From Cedecea neteri (GTDB taxonomy: Bacteria; Pseudomonadota; Gammaproteobacteria; Enterobacterales; Enterobacteriaceae): DNA of 64,000 bases. Shown here piece by piece: positions 5,306 through 60,861 of the stretch. The notes beneath the pieces are model-generated. The model saw nothing but the letters and a program-made list of their open reading frames with translations, did no database searches and was not told the origin of the DNA. The position numbers and the translations under genes were made by a program. The stretch covers positions 1,426,001-1,490,000 of the forward strand of contig NZ_CP009451.1 in NCBI RefSeq assembly GCF_000757825.1, written 5' to 3'. Position 1 is the stretch's first letter. Every line of letters starts with the position of its first letter.

Positions 5306-5308
5306 AGG

Positions 5309-9206: not shown

Positions 9207-9207
9207 G

Positions 9208-10850: not shown

Positions 10851-11578
10851 GCCGTTCAGTTCTGGTTACCGGTGCCAGCAAAGGCATTGGCCGCGCCATC
10901 GCCCGCAAACTTGCCGCCGACGGGTTTATTATCGGCGTCCATTACCATCGCGATGCCGCAGGGGCGCAGCAAACCCTGGACGACATCCTCGCCGCCGGGG
11001 GAGCCGGACGCCTGCTTTGTTTTGACGTGGGTAACCGCGAGCAATGCCGCGAAGTGCTGGAGCAGGACATGGAGGCCCATGGCCCGTGGTACGGCGTGGT
11101 AAATAACGCGGGTATCGCGCGTGATGCGGCGTTTCCTGCGCTCAGTGAAGAAGACTGGGACTCGGTTATCCACACCAACCTGGACAGCTTCTATAACGTT
11201 ATCCAGCCGTGCATTATGCCGATGATCTCTGCGCGCAAAGGCGGCCGAATCGTCACGCTATCTTCCGTGTCTGGCGTGATGGGCAACCGTGGCCAGGTCA
11301 ACTACAGCGCGGCGAAAGCGGGCATTATCGGTGCCACTAAAGCGCTGGCCATTGAGCTGGCGAAACGTAAAATCACCGTCAACTGCATCGCGCCGGGACT
11401 TATCGATACCGGCATGATCGAAATGGAAGAGGCCGCGCTGAAAGAGGCGATGGCCATGATCCCCATGAAGCGCACCGGCCAGGCAGAGGAAGTCGCCGGG
11501 CTGGCCAGTTATTTACTGTCTGATATTGCGGGCTACGTGACCCGACAGGTTATTTCCATCAACGGAGGGATGCTATGA
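10847..11578 (+). CDS. apeQ: 3-ketoacyl-ACP reductase ApeQ
   Basis: 243-residue short-chain dehydrogenase/reductase of the FabG type. It has the NADPH-binding T-G-A-S-K-G-I-G loop at residues 8-15, N-N-A-G near residue 85, the catalytic Ser in L-S-S-V-S-G, and Y-S-A-A-K near 150. It reduces the 3-keto intermediate in each elongation round. It shares 4-nt overlaps with apeP and apeR. Confidence 0.88.
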   Translation: MSRSVLVTGASKGIGRAIARKLAADGFIIGVHYHRDAAGAQQTLDDILAAGGAGRLLCFDVGNREQCREVLEQDMEAHGPWYGVVNNAGIARDAAFPALSEEDWDSVIHTNLDSFYNVIQPCIMPMISARKGGRIVTLSSVSGVMGNRGQVNYSAAKAGIIGATKALAIELAKRKITVNCIAPGLIDTGMIEMEEAALKEAMAMIPMKRTGQAEEVAGLASYLLSDIAGYVTRQVISINGGML

Positions 11579-12804
11579 CACGTCGTGTCGTAATTACGGG
11601 CATGGGCGGCGTTACCGCCTTTGGTGAAGACTGGCAGAGCGTCTCCGCCAGGCTGCTGGCGTACGAAAATGCGGTACGCAAAATGCCCGAGTGGCAGGTT
11701 TACGACGGGCTGCATACGTTGCTCGGCGCGCCGATCGACAACTTTACGCTGCCGGAACACTACACCCGCAAGCGCATTCGCGCCATGGGCCGGGTTTCGC
11801 TGATGTCCACCCGCGCGACCGAGCTTGCGCTGGAGCAGGCGGGGTTAATCGGTGAAAATGTGCTGACCAACGGCGAAACTGGGATCGCCTACGGATCGTC
11901 GACGGGCAGTACCGGCCCGGTGAGCGAGTTCGCCACCATGCTGACGGAAAAACACACCAATAATATTACCGGCACCACCTATGTGCAGATGATGCCGCAT
12001 ACCACCGCCGTGAATACCGGGCTGTTCTTTGGCCTGCGTGGGCGAGTGATCCCGACCTCCAGCGCCTGTACTTCCGGCAGCCAGGCCATTGGCTACGCGT
12101 GGGAAGCCATTCGTCACGGCTATCAGACGGTGATGGTTGCCGGCGGGGCAGAAGAGCTTTGCCCTTCCGAGGCCGCGGTATTCGATACCCTGTTTGCCAC
12201 CAGCCAGCGCAACGATCGGCCCAAAACCACACCTTCACCTTTCGACCAGCAGCGCGACGGCCTGGTGATCGGCGAAGGCGCGGGTACGCTGATTCTGGAA
12301 GAGCTGGAGCATGCGAAAGCACGCGGCGCGACCATCTACGGTGAAATCGTCGGCTTTGCCACCAACTGCGATGCCGCGCACATCACCCAGCCACAGCGCG
12401 AAACCATGCAAATCTGCATGGAACAGTCGTTGAAAATGGCCGGGCTGAGCGCGCTGGATATGGGTTATATCTCGGCTCACGGCACGGCGACCGACCGGGG
12501 CGATATTGCTGAGAGCCTGGCTACGGCGGCAATCTATGGCGACAACGTGCCGATTTCTTCGCTGAAAAGCTATTTCGGCCACACGCTGGGTGCCTGCGGC
12601 GCGCTTGAGGCCTGGATGAGCCTGCAGATGATGCGTGAAGGCTGGTTCGCCCCTACCCTCAACCTGAGCAAACCGGACGAGCACTGCGGCGCGCTGGACT
12701 ACATCATGGGTGAAGCACGCCAGATTGACTGCGAGTATTTGCAGAGCAATAACTTCGCCTTCGGGGGGATCAATACCTCTATTATCATTAAGCGCTGGGC
12801 TTAA
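11575..12804 (+). CDS. apeR: 3-oxoacyl-ACP synthase ApeR
   Basis: 409-residue ketosynthase, the second KS in the window. Catalytic residues are visible: Cys in T-S-S-A-C-T-S-G, His in S-A-H-G-T-A-T and His in Y-F-G-H-T-L-G-A-C-G. In reported APE pathways ApeR acts with ApeO but appears auxiliary, perhaps in chain initiation or anchor acyl synthesis. It is the last gene of the cluster. Eight bases after its stop an interspersed repeat with strong hairpins begins, which may serve as terminator. Confidence 0.86.
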   Translation: MTRRVVITGMGGVTAFGEDWQSVSARLLAYENAVRKMPEWQVYDGLHTLLGAPIDNFTLPEHYTRKRIRAMGRVSLMSTRATELALEQAGLIGENVLTNGETGIAYGSSTGSTGPVSEFATMLTEKHTNNITGTTYVQMMPHTTAVNTGLFFGLRGRVIPTSSACTSGSQAIGYAWEAIRHGYQTVMVAGGAEELCPSEAAVFDTLFATSQRNDRPKTTPSPFDQQRDGLVIGEGAGTLILEELEHAKARGATIYGEIVGFATNCDAAHITQPQRETMQICMEQSLKMAGLSALDMGYISAHGTATDRGDIAESLATAAIYGDNVPISSLKSYFGHTLGACGALEAWMSLQMMREGWFAPTLNLSKPDEHCGALDYIMGEARQIDCEYLQSNNFAFGGINTSIIIKRWA

Positions 12805-20292: not shown

Positions 20293-21147
20293 TTAGCCCA
20301 GCAGAGACATCACCATGCCGGACATGCTGTTGGACTGCTTCAGCATCGACATGCTGGTCTGCGCCAGCATCTGGTTGCGGGTCATGGAAGACGCTTCGCT
20401 TGCGAAGTCGGCATCCTGAATGTTGCCCAGCGCCAGCTCGGTGTTATCTTTCATGTTGGCCAGGTTCGCGGCGGTGTGGCCCAGACGGTTGATGTTCGCC
20501 CCCAGCCCGGAACGCATTTCGCCCACAGCTTTCAGACCCGTTTCCAGAGAGGTCATCAGTGCCTTGGCGTTGGCCGCGTTCCCGGTACCGCTCAGCGTGG
20601 TGATAGCCGTAGTAATACCGCCCATACCACCAGATACACCGGTCAACTGCGTACCCAGATTCACCGTCATGCCTTCCCCGGTGCTGGCACCAATCTGGAA
20701 GTTCATGTCGGCGCTCAGCTTGCCGCCTGCACCAAACATCTTATCGCCACCGAAAGAGGTGTTGGTCATGATATTGCCCAGCTCTTTGTTCAGTTCATCC
20801 AGCTCGGCGTTGATCGCTTTACGATCGTCTGCGCTGTTGGTGTCGTTCGCAGACTGCGTGGCCAGGTCTTTCATGCGGTACATGATGTTGCTGACTTCAT
20901 CGAACGCGCCTTCAGCGGTCTGCAGCATGGCGGTTGCGTCAGAGATGTTACGCTGAGCCACGGCCATACCGTTGCTCTGGCCCTGCAGGCGGGAAGCGAT
21001 CTGCATACCTGCGGCATCATCGGCAGCAGAGTTGATGCGTTTGCCGGTACCCAGGCGTTCCATCGCGGTGGACAGCATGCTGTTGGATTTATTCAGCGCG
21101 TTGATGGAGGACATGGAGGAACCGCTGGTGAAAATAGATAATGACAT
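20293..21147 (-). CDS. lafA: Lateral flagellin LafA, copy 2
   Basis: 284-residue flagellin. The conserved N-terminal D0/D1 (residues 1-145, with N-A-L-N-K-S-N and S-A-A-D-D-A-A-G motifs) and C-terminal D1/D0 (about 200-284, ending S-L-L-G) are joined by a very short centre, so the outer D2/D3 domains are lacking, as in typical lateral flagellins. It is highly similar to the neighbouring copy at 21313-22173; differences cluster at residues about 118-202. It has its own promoter, leader and terminator. Ribosome site AAGGAG. Confidence 0.92.
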   Translation of the reverse strand: MSLSIFTSGSSMSSINALNKSNSMLSTAMERLGTGKRINSAADDAAGMQIASRLQGQSNGMAVAQRNISDATAMLQTAEGAFDEVSNIMYRMKDLATQSANDTNSADDRKAINAELDELNKELGNIMTNTSFGGDKMFGAGGKLSADMNFQIGASTGEGMTVNLGTQLTGVSGGMGGITTAITTLSGTGNAANAKALMTSLETGLKAVGEMRSGLGANINRLGHTAANLANMKDNTELALGNIQDADFASEASSMTRNQMLAQTSMSMLKQSNSMSGMVMSLLG

Positions 21148-21312: not shown

Positions 21313-22173
21313 TTAGCCCAGCAGAGACATCACCATGCCGGACATGCTGTTGGACTGCTTCAGCATCGACATGCTGGTCTGCGCCAGCATCTGGTTGCGG
21401 GTCATGGAAGAGGCTTCGGTCGCGAAGTCAGCATCCTGAATGTTACCCAGCGCCAGCTCGGTGTTATCTTTCATGTTCGCAAGGTTCGCGGCGGTGTGGC
21501 CCAGACGGTTGATGTTCGCCCCCAGCCCGGAACGCATTTCACCCACCTTTTTCAGACCCTCTTCCAGAGAAGTCATCAATGCTTTTGCGCTAGTCGCGGT
21601 GGTACCGCCGCTCAGGTTGGTAATAGCAGCAGTAATACCGCCCATACCGCTGGCCCCGGTAACGCCGGTCAGCTGCGTACCCAGATTGACGGTCATGCCT
21701 TCCCCGGTGCTGGCACCAATCTGGAAGTTCATGTCGGCGCTCAGCTTACCGGTTGCACCAAAGAGCTTATCGCCACCGAAAGAGGTGTTGGTCATGATAT
21801 TTTCCAGCTCTTTGTTCAGTTCGCCCAGCTCGGCTTTGATCGCATTACGATCGTCTGCACTATTAGTGTCGTTCGCAGACTGCGTGGCCAGGTCCTTCAT
21901 GCGGTACATGATGTTGCTGACTTCATCGAACGCGCCTTCAGCGGTCTGCAGCATGGCGGTTGCGTCAGAGATGTTACGCTGAGCCACGGCCATACCGTTG
22001 CTCTGGCCCTGCAGGCGGGAAGCGATCTGCATGCCTGCGGCATCGTCAGCGGCAGAGTTGATGCGTTTGCCGGTGCCCAGACGCTCCATGGCGGTGGACA
22101 GCATGCTGTTGGATTTATTCAGCGCGTTGATGGACGACATGGAAGAGCCGCTGGTGAAAATAGATAATGCCAT
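21313..22173 (-). CDS. lafA: Lateral flagellin LafA, copy 1
   Basis: 286-residue flagellin with the same layout as copy 2: conserved D0/D1 ends and almost no surface domain. The variable centre (about residues 118-205) differs by scattered substitutions and a short indel (for example V-T-G-A-S-G-M-G-G versus V-S-G-G-M-G-G). Many Ser/Thr residues in the centre are possible glycan sites. A strong AAGGAGAA ribosome site precedes the ATG. Confidence 0.92.
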   Translation of the reverse strand: MALSIFTSGSSMSSINALNKSNSMLSTAMERLGTGKRINSAADDAAGMQIASRLQGQSNGMAVAQRNISDATAMLQTAEGAFDEVSNIMYRMKDLATQSANDTNSADDRNAIKAELGELNKELENIMTNTSFGGDKLFGATGKLSADMNFQIGASTGEGMTVNLGTQLTGVTGASGMGGITAAITNLSGGTTATSAKALMTSLEEGLKKVGEMRSGLGANINRLGHTAANLANMKDNTELALGNIQDADFATEASSMTRNQMLAQTSMSMLKQSNSMSGMVMSLLG

Positions 22174-35825: not shown

Positions 35826-36263
35826 ATGAGTAATGCAGCCCAGGACGTGAAGCAGTTAATCGAAGATATGATTGCCGATCGTAAATACTACACCGAGCTT
35901 AACGCCCTCCTGGAGCAGCAGCGTCAGCTTATTGTTGGCCGCCGGTCGCCAGAACTGGATCAGCTTAACGGTAAGCTGATTCAGATTTATGAGCGCCTCG
36001 CCGCAAGCAGCCAGCAGCGATACGCCACGCTTGCTGGTCTCGGCGTTCCCGCAGGCCCGCAGGGCATAAAAGCCTTATTCTCTCGCCTGCCAGTTTCACA
36101 TCAGGGCCAGGTCAGCGCGCTCTGGGAAGACCTTGAAACACAGGCCACCCGCTGCAAAACGGCTAATGAGGGGAATGGTTTGCTGCTGGGCATGCAGCAG
36201 GAGATTCTGGAAAACCTGGTGAACAGCAGCGAGCCGGAAAACTGGCTTTATCAGCAGGTTTAA
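35826..36263 (+). CDS. lfgN: Export chaperone LfgN (FlgN-like)
   Basis: 145-residue, mostly helical FlgN-type chaperone, which escorts the hook-associated proteins LfgK and LfgL. It follows lfgM by 3 nt. The variable cassette begins just after it. Confidence 0.84.
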   Translation: MSNAAQDVKQLIEDMIADRKYYTELNALLEQQRQLIVGRRSPELDQLNGKLIQIYERLAASSQQRYATLAGLGVPAGPQGIKALFSRLPVSHQGQVSALWEDLETQATRCKTANEGNGLLLGMQQEILENLVNSSEPENWLYQQV

Positions 36264-36320: not shown

Positions 36321-37358
36321 ATGGAAAAGATAAGTATTATTGTTTCAGCCTATAATGCGAAGAAACACCTTCATGCGTGCCTCAGCTCCGTGCTTAATCA
36401 AACTTATGATAACTATGAAGTTATTATTATTAACGATGGTTCTACGGATACGACGGAACAAATCGGCAACGAATTTGTTCATGCCAACGATAAATTTACC
36501 TTAATCAATATTGAAAATGGGGGACCAGGCAAGGCCAGAAATAAAGGTCTCGATATCGCTCAGGGCGATTATATTCTATTTCTGGATTCGGACGATCGTC
36601 TGGTTCCGGGCTGCCTGGAAACTGCCGTTAAAGCCATTAAAAAAAACAACCTTGATATTATATTTTTCCATACACGCCTTGAATATACTTGTGCTTCACT
36701 ACGCAATAATGATGTCGACAATTATTACCGCTATCCTGTTGAAACCATAAATTCACCTACAACAGCAGAGCGGTTTTACCGTCAGTGTATTATGTCACTA
36801 TGTCAGTCAGGATTTGGTTATCCTGTCGTGGTTTGGGGCTATATTTTTGCTCGTCAAAAATATCAGCAGCAGCGTTTCACCCAGCACATTTATGAAGATG
36901 AATTTTTTACCACAATGCTACTTTTATCCGATCAGGATGCCAAAGTTAGCTGTCTGAAAAATAAATTGCATATTCATACTTTACACCTAGCGTCTTTAAC
37001 TCAACAACCGCTAACGCAAGACAATATATATACGATGGCCTGCGTCGCAACTGAATTAATACCACTCATCAATGTAATTGAAAACAAAAAAACTCGCCAC
37101 TGCCTTGCCATTAATATAACAATATTAATCTTAAGCGCCATTAATAAAAACGATCGCCTTCTTCGTGATGCAATCAATCCAATGGAGTTAATCTTCTCAC
37201 TTGTTCAGCATACTTTGTCAGAACAGAATCAGACTTTTACCACACCATTAGCCGAACTGATTATTATTGTCATTACAACCATTGCCGATCATTATCAGAT
37301 CAGAGAAACACCAGAAGTCATCAATATCATTAAAATGATTCATCAATATAAAAATTAA
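36321..37358 (+). CDS. GT2-family glycosyltransferase in the variable cassette
   Basis: 345-residue GT-A glycosyltransferase. The N-terminal domain has I-I-V-S-A-Y-N-A, I-I-N-D-G-S-T-D near residue 37 and the metal-binding F-L-D-S-D-D near residue 90. The C-terminal half (about 210-345) is divergent and helical. The gene is visibly A+T-rich against its flagellar neighbours, which points to acquisition from elsewhere. It lies 57 nt after lfgN on the same strand. A role in lateral flagellin glycosylation is inferred from position only. Confidence 0.8.
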   Translation: MEKISIIVSAYNAKKHLHACLSSVLNQTYDNYEVIIINDGSTDTTEQIGNEFVHANDKFTLINIENGGPGKARNKGLDIAQGDYILFLDSDDRLVPGCLETAVKAIKKNNLDIIFFHTRLEYTCASLRNNDVDNYYRYPVETINSPTTAERFYRQCIMSLCQSGFGYPVVVWGYIFARQKYQQQRFTQHIYEDEFFTTMLLLSDQDAKVSCLKNKLHIHTLHLASLTQQPLTQDNIYTMACVATELIPLINVIENKKTRHCLAINITILILSAINKNDRLLRDAINPMELIFSLVQHTLSEQNQTFTTPLAELIIIVITTIADHYQIRETPEVINIIKMIHQYKN

Positions 37359-37365
37359 GTTTTGC

Positions 37366-37403
37366 ACAAACAGACTTCTTCACATTTCAAGAAGTCTGTT
37401 TGT
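37366..37403. terminator. Bidirectional terminator between convergent cassette genes
   Basis: Perfect 15-bp arms (37366-37380 and 37389-37403) with an 8-nt loop lie exactly between the GT2 gene stop and the racemase gene stop. A/T-rich sequence on both outer sides allows termination in both directions. Confidence 0.85.
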
Positions 37404-37404
37404 A

Positions 37405-38154
37405 TTATCTAAGCCGGTCCTTTCGAAAATTAATTTCCCTGAGTGCTGCACGCGCCAGCGCCTCATTTGAATCAATAACCTTTACGTCTTGCCACAAAGA
37501 ATGGGTTTTAATTAAACTCAATTCTGTACACGCCAATATAATTGTATCAACACTTTGATTGCGCAGTACATTAATAAAACATTCAAGTTCAGCATATAGC
37601 GAATCTGTAATAGTCTGAGATACTTTCAACGCCGAAATACATTCATTAATTACAACCTGATGTTGACAGTTCAATACATGAACGCTGTGGCCCGCCGCAG
37701 TTAGCGCATGTTGATATAATCCGCTAAGAAGTAAATCTTTTGAACCTAATATTGCCACTCTTTTTTTAGAAGCAGAGAGACAACTTACCGTTTCGTTAAT
37801 AATACTTAATACAGGGATCGTCGCATTCTCTCCCCAACCAGAGAAGAGAATATGTGCAGTATTACAGGGAACAACTGCAACGGTAGCACCTGATTTAGCC
37901 AACTCATTAATAGACTCAAAAATAAAAGGTGAAGGGTCTCGCTCTCCCAACTGCAAGTGCCGTCCCCGGCTGGGAATTTTACTGTTACTATCAACAATTA
38001 CTCGAGGGTAATCCCAGTCTTTCTTAGCATCAATAAGCGAATAAACCTGTTGGCAAAAATTAAGCGTCGCCCAGGGAGCAACGCCAACAACGCCAATTAC
38101 ACCTTCATTTCCGGGCCAGGTGACATCAGAATGCACAGGAACAATATTAACCAT
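37405..38154 (-). CDS. Asp/Glu-racemase superfamily protein
   Basis: 249-residue protein of the PLP-independent aspartate/glutamate/hydantoin racemase superfamily. Both catalytic cysteines are present: V-P-C-N-T-A-H near residue 93 and L-A-C-T-E-L near 205. The family racemises amino acids by a two-cysteine mechanism. The substrate is unknown; in this setting it could supply a D-amino acid for a surface modification (inference). It is the last gene of the minus-strand cassette run and overlaps the methyltransferase gene by 8 nt. Confidence 0.8.
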   Translation of the reverse strand: MVNIVPVHSDVTWPGNEGVIGVVGVAPWATLNFCQQVYSLIDAKKDWDYPRVIVDSNSKIPSRGRHLQLGERDPSPFIFESINELAKSGATVAVVPCNTAHILFSGWGENATIPVLSIINETVSCLSASKKRVAILGSKDLLLSGLYQHALTAAGHSVHVLNCQHQVVINECISALKVSQTITDSLYAELECFINVLRNQSVDTIILACTELSLIKTHSLWQDVKVIDSNEALARAALREINFRKDRLR

Positions 38155-38851
38155 GACACTTACCAAAATAATACAAACGCAGCCGCGTTTCTGGATATTT
38201 ATTCAAAACATGTCCTTCAGGAAACATATTTTCATCCCTGAGTGTTTCAAACCCTACCCTCTTGAAAACAGCCTTATACTCTTGAGCCGTACGGTAAAGT
38301 GCTGAGTATTCAGTTTGTAATAGTTCAGAGAACTGATTATTGATCTCATAGCGTTCAGCCAGGCCTGTACCATCTCGTAGCATAATGATAGTGTCGTCAT
38401 GAACAACGTTTTTTAAATTACTGATTAACGTTTCTACCTGCCGATCGTTCAGGTAGACAAAAAGCCCAGAGATGAAGATAACATCGAACCGCTCATTACT
38501 GCGGAAGTCCTCAGCGCCAGAAACAATGAACTCAATGTTTTCAGCCTGCCGTGATTGCGCTTCAAGCCTGCCGATCTCAACCAGCGGCTCAGAATATTCG
38601 ACGGCAACGATACGCGAAGCACCCTGTGCATGAAACCTGAATGTCCACTGGCCTACGCCAGCGCCAAGGTCCAGAATAGACTTCCCTTTTAAGGATGGCA
38701 GCCATGAGAAGACTTTCGCCGTTTCATCCTGAACTTTTATTTTCAACAGTTCAGGATCATGTTCCATATTCACAATGCTTTCAAACGGCAGCTTATTGTA
38801 TAAAGCAGAACGGCTATCCCAAAACTTTTTTACTTTACTTTCATTTAACAT
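38147..38851 (-). CDS. Class I SAM-dependent methyltransferase
   Basis: 234-residue methyltransferase. Motif I reads I-L-D-L-G-A-G-V-G-Q-W near residue 60, followed by an acidic V-E-Y-S that binds SAM ribose, and post-I D-V-I-F-I-S. Target unknown; likely a small molecule or sugar of the cassette pathway. Start ATG 38851; a GTG lies one codon upstream. Followed with overlap by the racemase gene. Confidence 0.8.
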   Translation of the reverse strand: MLNESKVKKFWDSRSALYNKLPFESIVNMEHDPELLKIKVQDETAKVFSWLPSLKGKSILDLGAGVGQWTFRFHAQGASRIVAVEYSEPLVEIGRLEAQSRQAENIEFIVSGAEDFRSNERFDVIFISGLFVYLNDRQVETLISNLKNVVHDDTIIMLRDGTGLAERYEINNQFSELLQTEYSALYRTAQEYKAVFKRVGFETLRDENMFPEGHVLNKYPETRLRLYYFGKCHG

Positions 38852-38866
38852 CACTTAATCCACACG

Positions 38867-40099
38867 TTAGTTTTTATATTTCCAGTTAGCAGCATGTTCG
38901 CAAAAATGCACATCTGTTTTATCAATATTTATGACGCGACTATTACAGAGAAAATCAAAGTTAAATTGCGTAAACTCATTAACCTCCTTTCCAGGGATCG
39001 GCAACAGGCGTACACCCAGAGGTTTCTTTAATCGTACGGCTAGCGCGGAAGTATCCAATATAATCGCGGAAATATCCTCGACCAGCGTAGAGCCTGGAAT
39101 GGGTATCATGTCCAATCCACATCCACACACCGTTGACCACGCATTAAGCGTGTCGATGCTTAATCGGCGACGATTATTAGCACTCGCTAATTCGTCATCC
39201 TCAAGTACGGAGAACATGACACCATTAAAACCCGTAGCTAAGGCGTTGCTGCGCTTAACAGCAGTTTTAATGCAGTTTGTCAGAATACTGGTCAGGAATA
39301 ATGTTCCCTGACTCCCACTCGGACGCGCGCCCAGATTTGACAACAGTTTTCCGATGGAAATATCGCCATCCGGGAAAGGGGCCAGTGAAGCATCGAGACC
39401 GGCATATTCAACACCCGTTTTAGTGGCCAGCTCTCGAGCAAAAACATTTATCGCTTCTAAGCGTGCCTGTAAGTCATCAATAAACCGCTCCGCAAATATC
39501 TCGAGGGATATTTTTTTCTTCAGTACATCTTTACTAAGCTTTAAAGCCAAATCCGTCGTTTCCAACGCGAGGCTGAATTTAAACGTTTCCCCCTCATGGC
39601 GTGAAAACGGAAAAAAAGGGGCGTTTGGAGGACAGGCGCAGGAAGCCCCGACGCGGAAATTATCAAAACCATTGTTGCTTTTACGAGACACATTCTGAAT
39701 AAAGCGTGCCGCATGGCGGCCAGCCTGAAGGCTAATCTGCGTTTCATCCGCCACCATAAGATTAACAAACATTTTAGAATGGCTAAAAAGTGCGGCAAAA
39801 GCCAAATCTAAACGCTGCGAGAAATGGGGGCTGCCAACCATATCAATGGGCAGACAAAACCAGCGGATCCCCTGTTGCTCGGCCATTCGACTGATTGATG
39901 CCAGTTTTGCCGGCAGCGCAAAAATATCGTCTTCCTGCGCCTCACGCAGAGTTTGAAGCGACATTCGAGTTGTACGCAAAGGCCAGTTTCGTTCTAAGAG
40001 CAAGGCCTGCACGCCGGTTTGAAAGGTTTGAAGAACTGACCCGATATCAATGGCAGAAGCATTATTACTGGGAACGCCGAGGGTGATCGCTCGAATCAT
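38867..40099 (-). CDS. DUF711-family protein
   Basis: 410-residue protein whose opening (I-R-A-I-T-L-G-V-P) and glycine-rich middle (F-R-V-G-A-S-C-A-C-P-P-N-A-P-F-F-P) resemble DUF711/UPF0210 proteins, which share a fold with pyruvate formate-lyase-type enzymes but have no known reaction. I see no glycyl-radical loop. It overlaps the upstream nucleotidyltransferase gene by 4 nt, so it is probably part of the same pathway. Confidence 0.65.
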   Translation of the reverse strand: MIRAITLGVPSNNASAIDIGSVLQTFQTGVQALLLERNWPLRTTRMSLQTLREAQEDDIFALPAKLASISRMAEQQGIRWFCLPIDMVGSPHFSQRLDLAFAALFSHSKMFVNLMVADETQISLQAGRHAARFIQNVSRKSNNGFDNFRVGASCACPPNAPFFPFSRHEGETFKFSLALETTDLALKLSKDVLKKKISLEIFAERFIDDLQARLEAINVFARELATKTGVEYAGLDASLAPFPDGDISIGKLLSNLGARPSGSQGTLFLTSILTNCIKTAVKRSNALATGFNGVMFSVLEDDELASANNRRRLSIDTLNAWSTVCGCGLDMIPIPGSTLVEDISAIILDTSALAVRLKKPLGVRLLPIPGKEVNEFTQFNFDFLCNSRVINIDKTDVHFCEHAANWKYKN

Positions 40100-40773
40100 T
40101 TTGCTAAAGCTTCCTTCATCAGTCTCAAATAGTCGGCTGCGCTGTTAATTTCTTTAAAATAATTCCGACCAACATCATGAGCGTAAACTAAAGTCTCTTC
40201 GGTACAAGGTAAAGCCTGTGCAACAAATAGATTACTGTGACATAAACATCTATTTCTCCATTCGCCGAGCAGTTTTTCATCCGATAGTTTAAACAACCCC
40301 ATCGCTTCGGGATGGCTGACGGAACGTATAGGCCCTTGATACGTTTCTATTATTTTTTCTTGCTGACCCATTGCACAGTGAATAGAACTTAGCATACGGT
40401 TATCACGATTCTGCGTTAGAACAATATTATTCTTTCCGTTATCCATCTCGCTAATTAGTTCACGGTTAAAAAACATATCACCTGACACCACATAAGTGGG
40501 ATCCATATTCTCTAACAGAGCAAGGCCAAGACTCATGGCATTATTTGTTGTCGCCCAATCTTCATTCAATACATAATTCAACTGCGGGTAGCGCTCCATA
40601 ATCTTCAGCGCACCATACCCCACGACAACCGTAACTCTCTTACCAGCAAATGCCTCTATCGCATAATCGAGGATGGTTTTTCTGGTCACCGGATGCTTAA
40701 TTAAAACTTTGTTTTTTCCATCTAATTGCAGGCTTCTTCCCGCTGCAAGAATAATTGCATTTTCAACCATCAT
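40096..40773 (-). CDS. LicC-like nucleotidyltransferase 1
   Basis: 225-residue NTP-transferase fold (GT-A-like). The N-terminus I-I-L-A-A-G-R-S-L-Q-L is a shortened form of the usual G-x-G-x-R signature, followed by K-N-K-V-L-I. A V-S-G-D-M-F-F metal-binding Asp lies near residue 97. It resembles sugar-phosphate or phosphocholine cytidylyltransferases. Start ATG 40773 has GGAG 7 nt upstream and overlaps the ParB-like gene by 11 nt. The altered loop suggests a changed substrate or weakened activity. Confidence 0.75.
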   Translation of the reverse strand: MMVENAIILAAGRSLQLDGKNKVLIKHPVTRKTILDYAIEAFAGKRVTVVVGYGALKIMERYPQLNYVLNEDWATTNNAMSLGLALLENMDPTYVVSGDMFFNRELISEMDNGKNNIVLTQNRDNRMLSSIHCAMGQQEKIIETYQGPIRSVSHPEAMGLFKLSDEKLLGEWRNRCLCHSNLFVAQALPCTEETLVYAHDVGRNYFKEINSAADYLRLMKEALAK

Positions 40774-41152
40774 ATCCCAACTCCTGCAAAGTAAAACGGC
40801 AGGCCGGCATCGGGCTAACAAAATCGTGCTTTACTGTTTTGTATGGATAAATATCATTACGTAATGCTTTTTCGGTAACATCCTGCCAGTCAAACTGATA
40901 CTTTTCACGCAAAGAACGCAGGGGCACCTCAGGGTAATCAAGTTTCACTACCGGTACTCTTTTTAACCCCAGGCGTAACGCAACCTCCATTCGATGCTGT
41001 CCGTCCAGCACTAAATGATGGTTCAGATCCAGAGCTAAAGGTTTGATCCATACCCCTTCAGTTAAAATTTTATTACACAACCATTCAACGCGGCTTGCGC
41101 TGAACCGTTCAATATGTCGTAATAAATTTGGATCGCAAAAATTAATTTCCAT
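40763..41152 (-). CDS. Small ParB/Srx-fold protein (possible small-molecule kinase)
   Basis: 129-residue protein with the ParB/sulfiredoxin core: V-L-D-G-Q-H-R at about residues 48-54, then V-A-L-R-L-G-L-K-R-V-P-V. It is far too short and in the wrong context for a partition protein. Small ParB/Srx proteins include free-serine kinases (SerK, SbnI), so a kinase that makes a phosphorylated amino acid or alcohol for the neighbouring nucleotidyltransferases is a reasonable hypothesis. In-frame ATGs at 41170 and 41164 are alternative starts. It overlaps both flanking genes. Confidence 0.6.
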   Translation of the reverse strand: MEINFCDPNLLRHIERFSASRVEWLCNKILTEGVWIKPLALDLNHHLVLDGQHRMEVALRLGLKRVPVVKLDYPEVPLRSLREKYQFDWQDVTEKALRNDIYPYKTVKHDFVSPMPACRFTLQELGYDG

Positions 41153-41933
41153 TTTTTTTACCATTAACATAATTTGATATTAATGCGAGATAATCATCGC
41201 GGGCAGATTGATACTGTTCAGCCGTGTTAAAAGAACGTGCGTATAGTTGAGAAATATCTACAGTCACGCAGGGTAATTCCTGGCGGTGATGGACCCATGG
41301 CACCATATAATATTGTTGCAGGCCTTTCTTGAGCCAATTCTTTCTGAGGGAACGATCGCAATCCACTTCCTGGGGTGAAACACTAAGGATTCCGACCATT
41401 TTATACCAATTATCATATTTCTTATTGTAATGAGGCTGATAGGAAACTTGGGTAATCATTCCATCCGGCTCCTTTACCTCAACAATTCCGCCAGTCAATT
41501 CGGGACTATAGCGACCATGTGTAAGCCAGAAACTATGATTTGCTTTCTCATATTTTTTTATTCTATCCCAAGCATGAGGATCAAGTAGAATATCTGTTTC
41601 TATAATGGTATAGCCACGCTGTGGATATTTTAATGCTTCCACACCAAGTTCTACTGAAAGAATATTAACATCAGTTTCATAAAACTCATTATGCACAAAA
41701 GTAATATTATTTTTTGGATAACGATTGCGGACCCACTCTTCAATCTTATGTGCCTGATATCCGGTAACCAGCACCAACTCACGCCCGGTATCTCTTATCA
41801 ACGGTGCCAGAAGTGTATCAATAACAGCAGACTCGCCGACAGGTAGTAAACATTTCGGGTAATTGTCCGTTAACCCACCCATTCTTTTTCCCTGCCCTGC
41901 AACCAGCAAAATAGCAGCTCGCTTTATCGGCAT
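41142..41933 (-). CDS. LicC-like nucleotidyltransferase 2
   Basis: 263-residue NTP-transferase with an intact signature L-V-A-G-Q-G-K-R-M-G-G at about residues 10-20 and P-K-C-L-L-P-V (Lys27). The metal-site Asp lies in I-I-E-T-D-I-L near residue 110. It is closest in pattern to CTP:phosphocholine cytidylyltransferases and NDP-sugar pyrophosphorylases. It lies 5 nt after the GT25-TagF gene. The substrate cannot be read from sequence; a CDP-activated phospho-alcohol would suit the TagF-like neighbour. Confidence 0.78.
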   Translation of the reverse strand: MPIKRAAILLVAGQGKRMGGLTDNYPKCLLPVGESAVIDTLLAPLIRDTGRELVLVTGYQAHKIEEWVRNRYPKNNITFVHNEFYETDVNILSVELGVEALKYPQRGYTIIETDILLDPHAWDRIKKYEKANHSFWLTHGRYSPELTGGIVEVKEPDGMITQVSYQPHYNKKYDNWYKMVGILSVSPQEVDCDRSLRKNWLKKGLQQYYMVPWVHHRQELPCVTVDISQLYARSFNTAEQYQSARDDYLALISNYVNGKKNGN

Positions 41934-41938
41934 ATCAA

Positions 41939-43768
41939 CTACTCCGATTCCAGACTAAATGATTTTTTGATTATCTCGATAATCGCATGCCCCGCACCTT
42001 GCGGAGCAAAATATAGCTCTCGTGACAAAGCGGCAAGGCGCTCTTTTTGTTTTACATCATTTCCCGAGATGACATTTGACACAAATGTGTAGAGATCTTT
42101 TTCGTTCCATGCCACATCATAGTCATGATAAATAAAGCTTGCGCTGTTATTAATACCTAATCGTTTTTCATGAGTAAGCAATAGTATCGGTTTGCGTGAT
42201 GGTAAATACTCCAGCAGGAATGACCCAACGTCAGCCATCAGCGCATCTGACTGAGAATAGGCCATTTTATAGTCGGCACCAAAATCCCATATAACGTTTG
42301 AACGATTTTGTGTAAACGCTAATAGCTGTGCATATTGTTCTTTGACTTTGTCGCCAAAGTGATTTATCCATTGAATGAACAAGGGATGAGGGCGAATAAT
42401 AACATTCACTTTCCCTTGATCTATAATATCCATTATCGCGTGAGCATAGAGATCGAATGTTGACCAACGAGGGTCGTTTTCAATAATATATTGCGGTGCC
42501 CACAGAAGCGTTTTCAAATTATTCGTAAAGACTGTTTTCTCTGTAGAGCAGTAGCGTTCATGATAATGGTCAAATTTGGGATGACCAACCACATGAACAT
42601 GATCCTTACCCGCTGCGCAATGCAGCGCGAATTCATTTTTATGCCGCTGTGAACGAACGAAAATCCAGCTGGCAGAATTATGGCAGGCCATGTTGTACTG
42701 GAAATTTGTATTTAACTCACTCGCCCCCATATCCAGCCCATAGGGGATATACGCAATTTTAATACCGTTACGGATTAAATTTGCACAGCTAAATATACTC
42801 GGTCGATTTACGTCATACGGATTCTGCAGAAATACAACATCTGGCTTTCTTTCGTACAGATTATAGTTTTCATAACCGTAATAAGGCACTTCGCATTCGT
42901 CCAGAAATTCTCTTGCTGCCATATTAGTAGGGTCCGTAGAACCTTCCGAGGTAAATGGAATAACAATAATTCTACAATCGAATTTATCATCATTGCGCAG
43001 AGCGTCGATCACCGTTTCAAAATTTGTCCAGCCAGGAGACCATTGAAAAAGGATATCAACTTTGATCTTCTGGTTGCCAATACGCTTTTTGACCTGCCGT
43101 TGCGTTATTTCATTTAGCGGCTTAGCAAACAGGCCACGATAGTCGACATACTGGCCCTCAATATCGCTTTTATCCGGCTGCTGATAGCCCACATTAGGGA
43201 AAATCCCCAACCAACAATCCCGCAACATAGACTCGTGCCAGTAGACATCGAGTGCGTATTCATGCTGTTGCCCCCCCTGCAATAAAGCATTTATGCTCTG
43301 GGTGTAAACATGCTGGAGCTGTTGATAATAGTTTTGGTTAACAATATAGGCGCATGCACACCACGCTTTATTAGCCTTAACGATATAGTCAACGCTGCCC
43401 AATTGGGTCACATTTTGATAGTTCGCGGCCAAAAAGCCTACGTTCCAGTTAACATGGTTTAATGCATTGAAATATTTATTGATTCGCTGGTACGCATCAT
43501 CATCATGGTGAAAAGCAATATCATCCTCAAGGATCAGAACATTTTTCCACCCTTCTTTATCCGCCATGTGCAGAGCATGAAGGTGTGACATAGCACACCC
43601 GATATAACCAGGCGAATACTCAATAGCTTCAAGGCGAAAAATTTTATCCTTTGGGATCCCTAGCTTTTTTAACTCTCTGGAAAGATAAAGTCTTCTGTCT
43701 TTTCTTCTGTTCAGATTGATATAGATGACTTTATCAATAAAGTCCCAATTGATTGTAATCATGGTCAT
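41939..43768 (-). CDS. GT25 glycosyltransferase - TagF-like phosphotransferase fusion
   Basis: 609-residue two-domain protein. Residues 1-230 form a GT25 (LPS-type) glycosyltransferase with V-I-Y-I-N-L-N-R-R-K-D-R and the E-D-D motif (Glu81-Asp83). Residues about 235-600 resemble CDP-glycerol glycerophosphotransferases: I-P-Y-G-L, V-G-H-P-K, L-L-W-A-P-Q, I-I-R-P-H-P and the terminal S-D-A-L-M-A-D-V-G-S-F block. The second domain would transfer a phospho-polyol or similar group from a CDP carrier. No signal peptide or TM is seen, so it acts in the cytoplasm. First gene of the minus-strand cassette run; A+T-rich. Confidence 0.8.
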   Translation of the reverse strand: MTMITINWDFIDKVIYINLNRRKDRRLYLSRELKKLGIPKDKIFRLEAIEYSPGYIGCAMSHLHALHMADKEGWKNVLILEDDIAFHHDDDAYQRINKYFNALNHVNWNVGFLAANYQNVTQLGSVDYIVKANKAWCACAYIVNQNYYQQLQHVYTQSINALLQGGQQHEYALDVYWHESMLRDCWLGIFPNVGYQQPDKSDIEGQYVDYRGLFAKPLNEITQRQVKKRIGNQKIKVDILFQWSPGWTNFETVIDALRNDDKFDCRIIVIPFTSEGSTDPTNMAAREFLDECEVPYYGYENYNLYERKPDVVFLQNPYDVNRPSIFSCANLIRNGIKIAYIPYGLDMGASELNTNFQYNMACHNSASWIFVRSQRHKNEFALHCAAGKDHVHVVGHPKFDHYHERYCSTEKTVFTNNLKTLLWAPQYIIENDPRWSTFDLYAHAIMDIIDQGKVNVIIRPHPLFIQWINHFGDKVKEQYAQLLAFTQNRSNVIWDFGADYKMAYSQSDALMADVGSFLLEYLPSRKPILLLTHEKRLGINNSASFIYHDYDVAWNEKDLYTFVSNVISGNDVKQKERLAALSRELYFAPQGAGHAIIEIIKKSFSLESE

Positions 43769-43791: not shown

Positions 43792-44748
43792 TTAAGGCCG
43801 ATCAATAAGTAACGACAGGCCAACCAACAGGCTAAAGTCTGACGAGACTGCAGCTGCCTCAGCCTGTGGGCAATTACCGTCCCAGCCAAACCAGGCACTG
43901 AATAAAGTAACGATCTCCCCGTCGCTAAGCATTTGACGATCGGCGCTCCAGACAGCAAATAGCATTTTTAGCTGGAAGAACTGGCGCGTCAGAGCCTGAA
44001 ACGCCAGACCGTAATTTTCGCACTTAATGCCAGGGAAAACGTTCTGGTAAAGACGATAAATAAGGACATTACGCAAAATATGAGGCTGTTCAGTAAGCAC
44101 CTGACACTTCGCCAGGTTCTGCTGTAGCTCCTGGAAACGCTCGCTCAAACGATTGGGCTGCATGATGTTCAGCTCACTGAGCTTCAGCATCATCGACATC
44201 TTGTCGGCCATCGGCAAATTCAAATTCAGGCGCATCACGCCCATTTCTTTAAGCGCTGCTAGTCGGTGTTCTTTTATTACAGGCAACATCGTTAACTGCT
44301 CTTCCAGCACGCCGTGTTCGGCCAGTTGAGCAAGCTGCTCACCCATCGACATCAACAGCGCAGGATCGCGCTTGTCATCGACAAGATACTGCTGCGCTTT
44401 GCTCAGCAGCACGCCGATAGCGTACAGGCTCACCTCAAGGGAAAGCGCCGGGTGCACTGCCAGATTTATGCACTGCTGGTTGAGCATTTCATCCCATGCC
44501 GTCAGCTCAACGGTGCCCTGCACCTCGGCCTGTGAGATTTGCAGCTCAAACGCCTGCGGATTAAACAGCAGTTCACGGGCAACGCTTTCGCAGCCGGGAT
44601 CCAGGCTTTCGCGTAGCTGAGTGGTGAGCTTAACGTTGGCCTGCGGCCAGCCTTCGCTCGCCCGGCTACAGGCCGGGCAGGAGCAGGCTTCGCTTCGGGC
44701 GGCATGGCGAAGAACAAATTCAGGTTGATAACGTTCGATGATTTCCAT
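43792..44748 (-). CDS. FliB-like flagellin lysine-N-methylase homologue
   Basis: 318-residue protein resembling FliB, which methylates surface lysines of flagellin. The N-terminal pattern aromatic-x-x-x-F-V-x-R, a cysteine cluster, then G-W, matches FliB. The cluster is C-x-C-x-x-C (Cys22, 24, 27) rather than the usual C-x3-C-x4-C-C, so any metal site may be altered. The rest is helical. I used ATG 44748, preceded by GGAGAG. Unlike the cassette genes to its left it has GC-rich codons like the flagellar genes. Confidence 0.7.
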   Translation of the reverse strand: MEIIERYQPEFVLRHAARSEACSCPACSRASEGWPQANVKLTTQLRESLDPGCESVARELLFNPQAFELQISQAEVQGTVELTAWDEMLNQQCINLAVHPALSLEVSLYAIGVLLSKAQQYLVDDKRDPALLMSMGEQLAQLAEHGVLEEQLTMLPVIKEHRLAALKEMGVMRLNLNLPMADKMSMMLKLSELNIMQPNRLSERFQELQQNLAKCQVLTEQPHILRNVLIYRLYQNVFPGIKCENYGLAFQALTRQFFQLKMLFAVWSADRQMLSDGEIVTLFSAWFGWDGNCPQAEAAAVSSDFSLLVGLSLLIDRP

Positions 44749-44783
44749 TTCTCTCTCCAGGGCGGCCACGGCCTTCCCTTTCT

Positions 44784-46196
44784 TTATCTGTGTTTACGGA
44801 AAAACCAGTGGGTGCAGTCGACCGGCTGGCCGCTCTGGCCGTCCAGCGTTTGCTGGATAAACGCGAAGCTCGGGTAGAAGCCGAGCCAGCAGCTTTGTTC
44901 AAACAGAGGCTGCCAGGCCTCATCGCGGGTTTGTGTCCCAGCGATGGCTTCACGATATGCATCGAGCAAAGTGGCATAAAAACTGGCATTCACGGCGTAG
45001 GCACAGCCATTTTCAGAGGCCTGCACGCGCACCACGCCCGGCAGCGATTTCATCAGCCGCAGTTCACCGTACTTCCCGCCAAGCATCAGCGCCTGCCAGT
45101 CGATATGGTCAAGCTTGGTCAGCAGGGCGTTCACCTGCTGGACCGAGTTCTCTTTCTTTACAAAATGCACCGCCGCATCCAGCAGCACCACGTTACGCCA
45201 GCCCTCACGCTGAGCCTGTTCCAGTACCGCGCAGTGGGTTTTCAGCTCGGCAAGCGCCGGATCTTCGTCCTGATGAAGCGTCACCGGCAGCAGCTGGTCG
45301 GCTGAAAAACCAAAGTCGAGAAGCCCCCGGCATTGCGCCTCCAGCTCCATTTCCTGCTGCACTGGGTAGATAACCGCAACTTTGTCGAATACCGACCAGT
45401 GGACCTGCTGGTTAAGCGGCGCGCGGCTTAAGCGTCGGTAATGCGCAAGCAGATTTTCGTCCTTCACCAAATCCTCAAGGTGCAGATCCACCGGCGTGCT
45501 GCTGCCCATAATGAAGTCTTTGTCGTAGGTGTTGCTGCTGTGGGAGATACAGACAATCGCCTTCTCAGGCGCAATTTGCAGCACCGGCGTGGTGAAGTTC
45601 TTCAGAAACGCTTGCTCCTCCGCGAGCGTCTCTTCGTCCTTATAGCGATTTTTCTTCAGCAGGTTGCGGTGCAGCCCAAAGGTGCCATTGAGCGCATGCC
45701 GTGGGCCAAAGGGATGACTGAGGTACATTTTGTCGAGGTGGCTGTACCAGACGTAAATCTGGTCGCAGCCGGAAAACAGCGCGTTATGGCCCTGCATTTC
45801 CGCCACCTGGTGCGAGATTTTTTCCGGCGGATAATAGTCATCATCGTCAAAGCTGATGATGTATTCCCCGGTTGCCAGTTCGTTGAGCATATTGCGTTTG
45901 CGCCCCAGCGCCAGGCGTTCCGGGCTATGAATGTAGCGCACGTTATGCAGCGCCGGGTCGACCATCATGTCGATCAGATCCTGGTTACTCTCGGCGGAGT
46001 CATCCAGCACGATCAGCTCGCGCTTATCCGCCGGATAGTCCTGATACTGGTAGATGTAGAGCAGGTACGGCAGAAATTCACGTCGGTTCCAGGTCGGGCA
46101 AACGACGCTGACAAAGGGCGTTTTTTGCGGGGCGGCGGCGCGCTGACGCTTTAACAGGTTATCCAGCAGGGTGCTGCGGTTAGCGGTAGGTTTCAT
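44784..46196 (-). CDS. GT2 glycosyltransferase fused to a degenerate GT25-like domain
   Basis: 470-residue protein. Residues 20-240 are a GT2 domain with V-C-P-T-W-N-R-R-E, I-V-L-D-D-S and a metal-binding F-D-D-D-D-Y. Residues about 300-465 align with the GT25 domain of the protein at 41939-43768 (for example E-G-W-R-N-V-V-L-L against E-G-W-K-N-V-L-I-L, and S-C-W-L-G-F-Y-P against D-C-W-L-G-I-F-P). The E-D-D catalytic motif is replaced by D-A-A near residue 340, so the second domain is probably a binding domain. It lies next to lfiJ and is likely to act on flagellin or another axial protein. Confidence 0.78.
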   Translation of the reverse strand: MKPTANRSTLLDNLLKRQRAAAPQKTPFVSVVCPTWNRREFLPYLLYIYQYQDYPADKRELIVLDDSAESNQDLIDMMVDPALHNVRYIHSPERLALGRKRNMLNELATGEYIISFDDDDYYPPEKISHQVAEMQGHNALFSGCDQIYVWYSHLDKMYLSHPFGPRHALNGTFGLHRNLLKKNRYKDEETLAEEQAFLKNFTTPVLQIAPEKAIVCISHSSNTYDKDFIMGSSTPVDLHLEDLVKDENLLAHYRRLSRAPLNQQVHWSVFDKVAVIYPVQQEMELEAQCRGLLDFGFSADQLLPVTLHQDEDPALAELKTHCAVLEQAQREGWRNVVLLDAAVHFVKKENSVQQVNALLTKLDHIDWQALMLGGKYGELRLMKSLPGVVRVQASENGCAYAVNASFYATLLDAYREAIAGTQTRDEAWQPLFEQSCWLGFYPSFAFIQQTLDGQSGQPVDCTHWFFRKHR

Positions 46197-46206
46197 GGGT
46201 TAACTC

Positions 46207-46644
46207 TTAGCGGTGAGCGAGCCGCTGGCGCAGCCAGCACTGAGCGGAAACGGCATCCGTCGCCTTCCGCTCGCGTCGCTCTTGTTCTGCATGGCGCTCG
46301 CTGCGCTTCGCGTCGAGCACCACCTCAAGGCCTTTTTCACGCTTCGCCTCCTGCAGCAAAGCGCCCTGCAGCTGGCGGGCTTCCAGCTCGGCCAACGCGT
46401 GCTCCTGCTTCTGCCAGTCGATCACTCGCTGAAGGGTGCGCTTGTAGCCCGAGTGGTTCACCATCTGCAGCGCGGAGTTGCCGCTCTCCGGGCTTATACC
46501 GGCGGCAAGCGACGTCAGCGTGCTGATGTTTTTTTCATAGCGCTGGCACAGCTGCTGCTGGGCGTTTAACCGCGCGCCGGTCTCTTTTACCGCCCGGTTA
46601 CGTAGCGTGTGCAGCTGTTCCAGCGTGGCAATCAGTTTGCTCAT
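46207..46644 (-). CDS. lfiJ: Export protein LfiJ (FliJ-like)
   Basis: 145-residue, strongly helical coiled-coil protein rich in Gln, Glu, Lys and Arg, as expected of FliJ, the stalk that links the export ATPase to the LfhA gate. It lies 6 nt after lfiI. Identification rests on this character and on the conserved lfiE-J order. Confidence 0.82.
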   Translation of the reverse strand: MSKLIATLEQLHTLRNRAVKETGARLNAQQQLCQRYEKNISTLTSLAAGISPESGNSALQMVNHSGYKRTLQRVIDWQKQEHALAELEARQLQGALLQEAKREKGLEVVLDAKRSERHAEQERRERKATDAVSAQCWLRQRLAHR

Positions 46645-59901: not shown

Positions 59902-60861
59902 TTATCCGGCAAGCGGTATTTCAGCGTTAAATTCACGCCCTGATTTCACCACCCCATAAGCCAGCTGTAGCAGCTTTCTCATTCCTGCACACACGCGTTC
60001 TTTGCCTGTCTTCCCCCTGCTCGCCATCCGGGTCATCAGGTCTTTCACCACTTCATTACATCTTCCCGCCACTACCGTAGGCATATACAGCACGCTACGC
60101 AGCTCACGGCTCCCCACTTTTGACAACCTGCTCTTTCCCTTCCACATCCCGGACTCACAACGTCGTGGGTTCAGCCCTGCATAAGCCACCAGAGCCTTAC
60201 TGCTCCTGAACCGCCTCAGGTTTCCCGCGAAGGCCAGAAGACTCGTACTCAGCACATCTCCCACTCCCGGGATACTCTCCAGCAGCGCTTTGTCTTTTCT
60301 CAGGTCCGGGTCATCATCAATGTGCTGTCTGATTTTCTTTTTGGTTTCTTTTATCAGTTCATCCAGCGTGGCGATGTGCTCTTTTAACGAGCCAGTGATG
60401 ACCTCATCTGCGGCCTCCAGCCTGTTCTCTTCCATCTGACGCATCTCTTCAAGATTTTTAAGATGCCGCACCAGCGCGGTCAGCTGTCGCTGGCTGAGAG
60501 GAGCCGGATGCCATTGGGCTGGCTGATACAGGGCACAATACCGTGCTATCAGGGCGGCATCGCTTTTATCCGTTTTGTTTCGGGTCAGTTCGGTGTTACT
60601 GAAGGCATGAATGCGGGCAGGGTTTTCCAGGCTGACGCGATAGCCGCCATCGGACAATGCCGTGGCGAGTTCCGTGCTGTAGCTGCCCGTCGCTTCCATA
60701 CAGACATGACAGTCCCCAAAGCGGGTCAGCCAGTGAATAAACTCACGACATCCCGCAGGCGTGTTAGCAAACTTTTTAGTTTTGTATTTCTGACCAGGCA
60801 GCAGGACAGCGACATCAAATTTTAGCTTAGCAATATCAACGCCGACAGAAGTGAGGGTCAT
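59902..60861 (-). CDS. IS110-family transposase (DEDD recombinase)
   Basis: 319-residue transposase. The N-terminal RuvC-like DEDD residues are visible: Asp9 (V-G-V-D-I-A-K), Glu56 (M-E-A-T-G), Asp98 and Asp101 (T-D-K-S-D-A). The C-terminal transposase_20 domain has I-P-G-V-G and A-G-L-N-P-R-x-x-x-S-G, and a Ser-rich segment (S-R-L-S-K-V-G-S) expected to hold the catalytic serine. The frame is intact, so the element may be active. Confidence 0.92.
   Translation of the reverse strand: MTLTSVGVDIAKLKFDVAVLLPGQKYKTKKFANTPAGCREFIHWLTRFGDCHVCMEATGSYSTELATALSDGGYRVSLENPARIHAFSNTELTRNKTDKSDAALIARYCALYQPAQWHPAPLSQRQLTALVRHLKNLEEMRQMEENRLEAADEVITGSLKEHIATLDELIKETKKKIRQHIDDDPDLRKDKALLESIPGVGDVLSTSLLAFAGNLRRFRSSKALVAYAGLNPRRCESGMWKGKSRLSKVGSRELRSVLYMPTVVAGRCNEVVKDLMTRMASRGKTGKERVCAGMRKLLQLAYGVVKSGREFNAEIPLAG

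Follow-up and report, generated by a model that had tools for sequence, protein, structure and literature searches.

A candidate serine-phosphate analogue of Type A flagellin glycosylation in the lateral flagellar locus of Cedecea neteri

Lateral (flag-2) flagellar loci contain a variable slot between lfiJ and lfgN, called VR1, whose role as a modification hotspot is already described. De Maayer et al. (2020; PMC6993521), in the section devoted to it, list GT2 and GT25 glycosyltransferases, LafV, methyltransferases, TagB and TagD among its cargo and propose teichoic-acid-like glycans. Phospho-amino-acid glycans have been described on other flagellins. The Type A system of C. difficile (CD0240-CD0244) involves phosphorylation of an amino acid, a proposed activation by cytidine triphosphate (CTP), N-methylation and a TagF-type transfer to a flagellin sugar, and its PSP/ThrH-like HAD protein, CD0241, is proposed to shift the phosphate from phosphoserine to threonine (PMC10714395). 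The passages of that paper used here also state that cytidine diphosphate (CDP)-L-serine and CDP-L-glutamine are known in other prokaryotes, and propose CDP-threonine, called an undescribed metabolite so far, as donor for such glycans. In P. aeruginosa PAO1, the b-type flagellin cluster (PA1088-PA1091) leads to an N,N-dimethylthreonine-phospho-deoxyhexose, as reported in the passages of PMC11833859 that concern it. Here we describe an A+T-rich block, positions 36321-43768 of a 64,000-nucleotide stretch of Cedecea neteri (hereafter the window; contig NZ_CP009451.1, positions 1,426,001 to 1,490,000), which lies in the VR1 slot of a lateral flagellar locus and contains a relative of the free serine kinases SerK and SbnI.

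We found that this block holds, on one strand, a GT25-TagF fusion, two LicC-like nucleotidyltransferases (NT2 and NT1), the kinase relative, a DUF711 protein, an S-adenosylmethionine (SAM) methyltransferase (MT) and an Asp/Glu-type racemase (Table 1). Protein families and analogy suggest, as the most likely reading, that this cassette is a version of the Type A system that works with serine, built from an operon found across phyla. It shares the nucleotidyltransferase, methyltransferase and TagF families with Type A, a comparison made through slot proteins of two other genomes (L034 and L035, see below), and like the b-type cluster it groups a glycosyltransferase-TagF fusion (PA1091 in PAO1), a methyltransferase and a nucleotidyltransferase in a small set of genes. 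However, a SerK-type kinase relative stands where Type A has CD0241 and the b-type has the PSP-like PA1089, a GT25 domain stands where the b-type has a GT2, and neither racemase, DUF711 nor second nucleotidyltransferase belongs to the Type A set as published in the passages used. Among ten proteins scanned between 36321 and 46196, none gave a Pfam match to a HAD phosphotransferase of the CD0241/PA1089 type; the cassette would work like Type A but, because of this absence, not be a member of it. Like flag-2 VR1 cargo, the cassette lies in the slot between lfiJ and lfgN, departs in base composition from its surroundings and occupies a place whose content varies between species. The section of PMC6993521 on VR1, however, mentions neither a racemase or serine kinase nor DUF711 or a LicC-like nucleotidyltransferase, and the words 'racemase' and 'nucleotidyl' are absent from its main text. 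LicC and PntC are the nearest solved relatives of NT2, but the passages on them mention no kinase, racemase or DUF711 partners, unlike the cassette here, and family libraries found a phosphonate mutase in none of the ten scanned proteins. Literature searches of partial coverage (CDP-serine, CDP-threonine and the gene combination) found no description of this gene set; besides the Type A and b-type papers they gave only papers that, by their listings, are not about it. This agrees with an earlier sequence-only reading of this DNA, which knew of no described pathway with it.

Table 1. Genes of the A+T-rich block, the borders of its slot and the proposed acceptors (positions in the window; aa, amino acids)
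Feature	Position	Strand	Family match
Two tandem lateral flagellins, proposed acceptors	20293-21147, 21313-22173	-	first: NF038071 LafA 350 bits (cut-off 365)
lfgN, other slot border	35826..36263	+	
GT2 glycosyltransferase, 345 aa, convergent with cassette, A+T-rich	36321-37358	+	PF00535 126.8 bits
Asp/Glu-type racemase, 253 aa, CuyB-like	37405-38166	-	PF01177 108.8 bits
SAM methyltransferase (MT), 235 aa, predicted N-methyltransferase	38147-38854	-	PF13649 56.5 bits
DUF711/UPF0210-family protein, 410 aa	38867-40099	-	PF05167 210 bits (above cut-off)
Second nucleotidyltransferase (NT1), 241 aa from the called start, start probably at 40773	40096-40821	-	
Relative of SerK/SbnI-type free serine kinases, 135 aa from the called start, start probably at 41152	40763-41170	-	
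NT2, LicC-like nucleotidyltransferase, 263 aa, predicted phosphoserine cytidylyltransferase	41142-41933	-	
GT25-TagF fusion, 609 aa: GT25 ~1-225, CDP-X phosphotransferase ~226-609	41939-43768	-	PF01755 33.4 bits
LafV/FliB-like flagellin lysine methylase relative, resident, upstream of insert	43792-44769	-	NF038110 64.2 bits (cut-off 85)
Resident GT2 with GT25-like C-terminal half	44784-46196	-	
lfiJ, end of lfi run reading towards cassette	46207..46644	-	

A somewhat probable reading is that the cassette forms a mobile unit which makes a CDP-activated phospho-amino acid from serine and attaches it to a sugar, with lateral flagellin as the acceptor. The SerK/SbnI-like kinase, judged by its family, fold and catalytic residue, would convert free serine to O-phosphoserine, and NT2 would join this with CTP to give CDP-serine. 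The methyltransferase would add one or more N-methyl groups. The two-cysteine racemase might invert the alpha carbon, a weaker assignment that takes a phosphoserine-type substrate as plausible because phosphoserine resembles aspartate and cysteate. DUF711 and NT1 would perform or control a further step. Following the Type A model, flagellin would receive a sugar from the GT25 domain, and to that sugar the TagF domain would transfer phospho-(N-methyl)serine with release of cytidine monophosphate.

The protein in which this pathway would start had been labelled ParB/Srx-fold in the sequence-only reading, and this label did not hold. The ParB identity was rejected, with 13.8 bits to ParB_N against a cut-off of 26.3, and structure prediction, which had been suggested for this protein, gives a fold closest to SerK/SbnI and not to ParB or sulfiredoxin, which rules out a sulfiredoxin role as well. 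Its E21 aligns with the catalytic E30 of SerK and is invariant in 37/37 sequences, and a DGxHR motif is common to both proteins; a KTx(K/R)H motif can be matched to SerK as well, but only within a stretch that is not significant on its own. From its sequence, its predicted fold and the invariant catalytic glutamate, the protein is a compact SerK/SbnI relative, not an archaeal SerK equivalog, and is predicted to phosphorylate serine, so the phosphorylation step of the earlier reading stands in this form. Its characterised relatives SerK and SbnI are serine kinases according to the passages used (PMC5120207, PMC12704722), the second source being a survey of ParB-fold proteins that reports a SerK-like domain binding CTP. 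The fold is shared with both, and the catalytic glutamate and DGxHR with SerK, whereas SerK and SbnI are linked to cysteine or siderophore synthesis and the kinase here to a nucleotidyltransferase and DUF711. Kinase relatives occur on 97 plasmid records, all at <60% identity and mostly rhizobial; no match was found in phage records. Also, on an Agrobacterium vitis plasmid (L020, 2735-11863) a SerK-like protein lies beside a phosphoenolpyruvate mutase and a phosphocholine-cytidylyltransferase-family protein, together with a CDP-alcohol phosphatidyltransferase, an ornithine cyclodeaminase and a cysteine synthase, an unusual phosphonate and phosphoserine cluster.

We examined 13 kinase loci, namely the window, L002-L011 (all ten of one search), L017 and L030. 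Since 11 of the 13 were retrieved with the kinase alone as query, the other cassette genes were not selected for. The counts leave out L018 and L019 (weak kinase matches, no other cassette gene), L013-L016 (distant kinases) and L001 and L012 (own genome), as well as L005 for DUF711, MT and racemase, its contig ending past NT1; family-library scans covered part of the open reading frames (ORFs) of the loci. An NT2-type gene adjoins the kinase in all 13, and the two are fused in an archaeal metagenome-assembled genome (MAG; L010:280-1431) and in a metagenomic 335-kb IMG/VR contig listed as viral (L017:9290-10405). DUF711 is present in 12/12 loci whose contig continues, NT1 in 11/13, the racemase in 8/12 and the methyltransferase in 11/12; in L011 it lies close by on the opposite strand. 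All six genes occur in the same order, NT2-kinase-NT1-DUF711-MT-racemase, in 8/13 loci (window, L002, L003, L004, L006, L007, L009 and L030). These eight come from at least two phyla, and by record title their sources include Pantoea, Agrobacterium, Rhodobacteraceae, a gammaproteobacterial MAG, Burkholderiales and Thermoanaerobaculia. Additionally, among the best 120 matches of each, kinase and DUF711 (65 and 103 contigs) have 20 exact contig sizes in common (contigs of at least 3 kb), whereas 100 offset controls averaged 0.24 and reached at most 3. TagF and DUF711 matches share 5 contig sizes (controls: mean 0.41, maximum 3). TagF-like proteins were recognised in seven of the 13 loci: the window, L002, L003, L006, L007 (by our own hidden Markov model, HMM, only), L009 and L030.

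The remaining enzymes are consistent with the CTP activation, methylation and phospho-transfer that had been suggested from the sequence. The nearest solved structures to NT2 are LicC (1jyk) and PntC (6pd1), and its A-G-x-G-x-R, K and E-x-D residues are invariant in 12/12 sequences, L005 being left out because its NT2 lies in two frames. NT1 is nearest to GlmU in the PDB, then to LicC; it retains DG..K and SxD, though the canonical GxR is missing, and both nucleotidyltransferases match NTP_transf_3 (38.6 and 31.1 bits). The methyltransferase is nearest to the phospho(methyl)ethanolamine N-methyltransferases 5wp5 and 5wp4 in the PDB, which points to N-methylation, and it is matched in 41 of 120 listed TagF relatives in a wider database; the alignment of cassette methyltransferases omitted the L011 copy. 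The racemase passes the TIGR00035 cut-off (107.2 vs 93.1 bits), with C101 and C213 invariant in 8/8. The predicted fold of the DUF711 protein matches SP0239, the sole Foldseek match at E≤0.001, and a ribonucleotide reductase fold match came from VIA-align only. No fusion partner of DUF711 was found among 120 listed proteins, and a literature search by family names found no paper titled as a study of its function. The TagF part alone scores 21.7 bits to PF04464, just below the cut-off of 22.1; this family is present in 11 of the 34 nearest other GT25-TagF homologues (P0122-P0155, 47-55% identical), and P460-H461-P462 is invariant in 12/12 aligned domains. The entire fusion has 142 homologues at E≤1e-5 and, as query in a PDB sequence search, gave no match. 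In its tree four cassette-linked rows fall outside a supported group of 31 rows (100/100; ribitol-type and lone copies), three of them linked by direct reading and P0122 by identical contig size only; long branches meet at this fork, which is open, and the tree was not used.

The flagellar locus of the window has homologues of LafA, FliI, FliG, FliF, FliD, FlgE, FlhA, MotA and FliA. The eight ORFs that had been listed for the block, with their coordinates and families, were recovered with the exception of the ParB/Srx label, and the deviating base composition was verified: G+C is 41.7% in 36321-43768 vs 56.4% for the remaining window, while 84 other windows of equal size range from 51.9% to 60.4%, none below. 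The block had been placed between lfgN and lfiJ; it does lie within that slot, but it abuts lafV, as lafV and the resident GT2 intervene before lfiJ. The convergent GT2 (36321-37358) was ruled out as a cassette member, having no match in L002 or L030. The insert begins 23 bases past lafV on the same strand, and this is the largest gap in the run lfiI-lfiJ-GT2-lafV-GT25/TagF-NT2-kinase-NT1-DUF711-MT-racemase. From GT25-TagF to the racemase, 4/6 junctions overlap as called, as had been noticed, while 5 and 12 bases separate the genes at the remaining two. Because of the shared strand and gaps of ≤23 bases, the cassette is likely co-transcribed with the lfi genes and lafV. Promoter-like matches (33 vs 16.5 in shuffles, clustered in the A+T-rich part) and terminator-like matches (26 vs 19.5, near chance) were not used. 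The two tandem flagellins encode proteins 94% identical. Elsewhere in the own genome, a flag-1 flagellin match (C1:4496718-4497534) is split over two adjacent reading frames, and the primary flagellin may be broken, or this may be a sequence error. By eye only, a transposase-like ORF lies beside the flagellar locus (59902-60861, minus strand), and an ORF run upstream of the flagellar genes (1344-12804, plus strand) resembles an aryl-polyene/fatty-acid type cluster.

The cassette kinase was found in one of eight genomes of the genus, the own one. A draw from the order gave matches in 3/394 genomes and a draw from the phylum in 4/398, the own genome included each time and the other two and three being distant only; E. 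coli genomes, searched by megablast only, yielded nothing close to a copy of the block. Five of the eight genus species, own included, have lfiJ and lfgN. The sister species L026-L029 have the lafV-like gene at the same position; in L026 and L027 the slot holds the resident GT2 and lafV only, with ~0.1 kb from lafV to lfgN. In L028 it holds a Capsule_synth protein together with a GT25 protein that shares 55% identity with the GT25 domain of the window, and in L029 a TagD-like protein, a 720-aa GT9 protein and two Glyphos_transf proteins. From its A+T-rich composition and its absence from the slot of sister species, the block looks horizontally acquired.

At E≤1e-60, GT25-TagF relatives occur in 10/295 genomes of Enterobacteriaceae, own included, L036-L038 matching by the GT25 half only and L034 and L035 by the TagF half only; the family name is deduced from the L032 protein, which is identical to P0154, a protein assigned to Enterobacteriaceae at its source. 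Seven of these ten relatives sit in flag-2 VR1 (own and L032-L037; in L033 lfgN falls outside the fetched stretch), and no flagellar match was found near the relative in the fetched stretches of L030, L031 and L038. The relative of L033 (~8130-9946), read in two frames, is probably a decaying copy. In L032 the GT25-TagF relative is accompanied by a fusion of a ribitol-5-phosphate cytidylyltransferase type (169 vs cut-off 166 bits) with an SDR part. In the slot of L034 a TagF-MT fusion is accompanied by a nucleotidyltransferase and a PSP/ThrH-type HAD protein, and L035 has the same four components there as separate genes. Their families match the set described for flagellin of C. difficile (Type A) and P. 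aeruginosa (b-type) in the passages used, and they predict a Type-A-like glycan on the lateral flagellin of both L034 and L035. The window proteins are 44-46% (TagF), about 29% (MT) and about 30% (NT2) identical to those of L034/L035, with E 3e-20 for MT to L034 and 2e-12 for NT2 to L035, and the homology of the TagFs is in line with the proposed phospho-transfer. The slot thus exchanges modules of CDP-donor type, and several of these come with transferases from one TagF family.

Several findings weigh against the pathway as we propose it, and a number of them concern the acceptor. When 25 window proteins from the flagellar locus served as tblastn queries (21 matches in L032 as positive control), the fetched stretches of 12/13 kinase loci gave no flagellar match. 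L002 and L030, the complete cassettes with a GT25-TagF that are closest to this one, lie among unrelated genes in genomes with flagellin matches that hold FliG at 31-32% identity only and no flag-2-like FliG. TagF and kinase matches share 2 contig sizes, not above control (mean 0.35, maximum 2), and neither the HMM over all frames nor Pfam on those proteins scanned recognised a TagF in the fetched flanks of L004, L005, L008, L010, L011 and L017. For the enzymes, the kinase scores 31.4 bits against an NCBIfam SerK equivalog cut-off of 380 and has about half the length of SerK (135 vs 242 aa). The racemase falls below the NCBIfam CuyB cut-off (167.8 vs 190 bits), and its absence from 4/12 loci means that a D-product is not general. 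The nucleotidyltransferases of L034 and L035 score 67 and 69 bits with the NT1 profile and 71 and 78 with that of NT2, and being nearly as close to NT1 they do not settle which one of the window corresponds. Lastly, a pathway needing both NT1 and DUF711 may make a product other than CDP-N-methylserine.

The findings on the acceptor also feed the strongest alternative, which we regard as unlikely though worth serious attention: the same donor pathway would serve another surface glycan, lipopolysaccharide (LPS), capsule or flag-1 flagellin, with the flagellar position as a cargo hotspot, as VR1 is known to be (PMC6993521, section on VR1). Besides the two genomes just mentioned, five loci place core genes beside polysaccharide-type genes: TagF and a flippase-like match just below cut-off in L003, GT4 and GDP-mannose dehydratase in L004, a Wzy_C ligase and a Wzm-Wzt type transporter in L005, a GT4 domain near the NT2-kinase fusion of L010, and a GT domain, a sugar epimerase and a sulfatase-like protein near that of L017. 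Against it stand the shared direction of the cassette with the lfi genes and lafV, the GT25 or TagF relatives in flag-2 VR1 in seven of ten family matches, and the CDP-donor-type gene together with Glyphos_transf proteins in the slot of L029, L032, L034 and L035. The sequence-only reading had flagellin as the likely target, which is favoured by these VR1 relatives and by the place of the cassette where the lfi run ends, and not by the 12 non-flagellar loci; a pathway dedicated to lateral flagellin is not supported by those loci. Its own counter-case, a gene set mainly in capsule or LPS loci with no flagella, is seen in part, with 5/13 loci beside polysaccharide-type genes and 12/13 non-flagellar. 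The pathway is general and its flagellar link local, and the phospho-donor pathway is better supported than its use on lateral flagellin, for which operon position and slot exchange are the evidence.

Two further alternatives change the product. It is quite improbable that the cassette makes phosphocholine or N-methylated phosphoethanolamine through decarboxylation of phosphoserine, with DUF711 as candidate, PMT-like methylation and LicC-like activation to CDP-choline. The kinship of the methyltransferase to phosphoethanolamine N-methyltransferases, a CTP:phosphocholine cytidylyltransferase as nearest relative of NT2 and second-nearest of NT1, and DUF711 in all evaluable loci would fit; yet there is no known decarboxylase, the racemase of 8/12 loci would be pointless after decarboxylation, and the methyltransferase is homologous to those of Type-A-like slots, the Type A residue being an N-methylated amino acid (PMC10714395, passages used). 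We also give little credence to a kinase acting on another hydroxy amino acid, threonine or homoserine, with a Type-A-like phospho-N-methylthreonine made through an unrelated kinase: in its favour, TagF, MT and NT2 have homologues in the Type-A-like sets found in this slot, but the characterised SerK and SbnI are serine kinases, also by PDB titles, and racemase and DUF711 are foreign to the published Type A set. That the block is A+T-rich passenger DNA in decay with no present function, as foreign composition and presence in one of eight genus species could suggest, is highly improbable, for all ORFs are open and tightly packed, with catalytic residues retained.

Beyond the lateral flagellum of C. 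neteri, we tentatively raise a wider possibility, an undescribed CDP-amino-acid pathway that would be widespread among bacteria and reach at least one archaeal MAG. In it, a SerK-type kinase and a cytidylyltransferase would together form CDP-serine, which DUF711, an N-methyltransferase and a phosphoserine-type racemase would tailor to give glycans phospho-decorated with N-methylated, often D-, serine, lateral flagella being one acceptor that took up the pathway as an exchangeable part. If true, this would be the first functional context for DUF711, an orphan family with a ribonucleotide-reductase-like barrel that would gain a place in a pathway, possibly acting on a CDP-bound substrate. A class of short proteins annotated as 'ParB' may likewise be serine kinases, and the conserved kinase-cytidylyltransferase operon with its fusions offers small enzymes in which CDP-amino-acid chemistry on glycans could be tested. 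For the flagella themselves, a single slot exchanges its donor module between glycerol-, ribitol-, threonine- and serine-like types, as judged by gene content.

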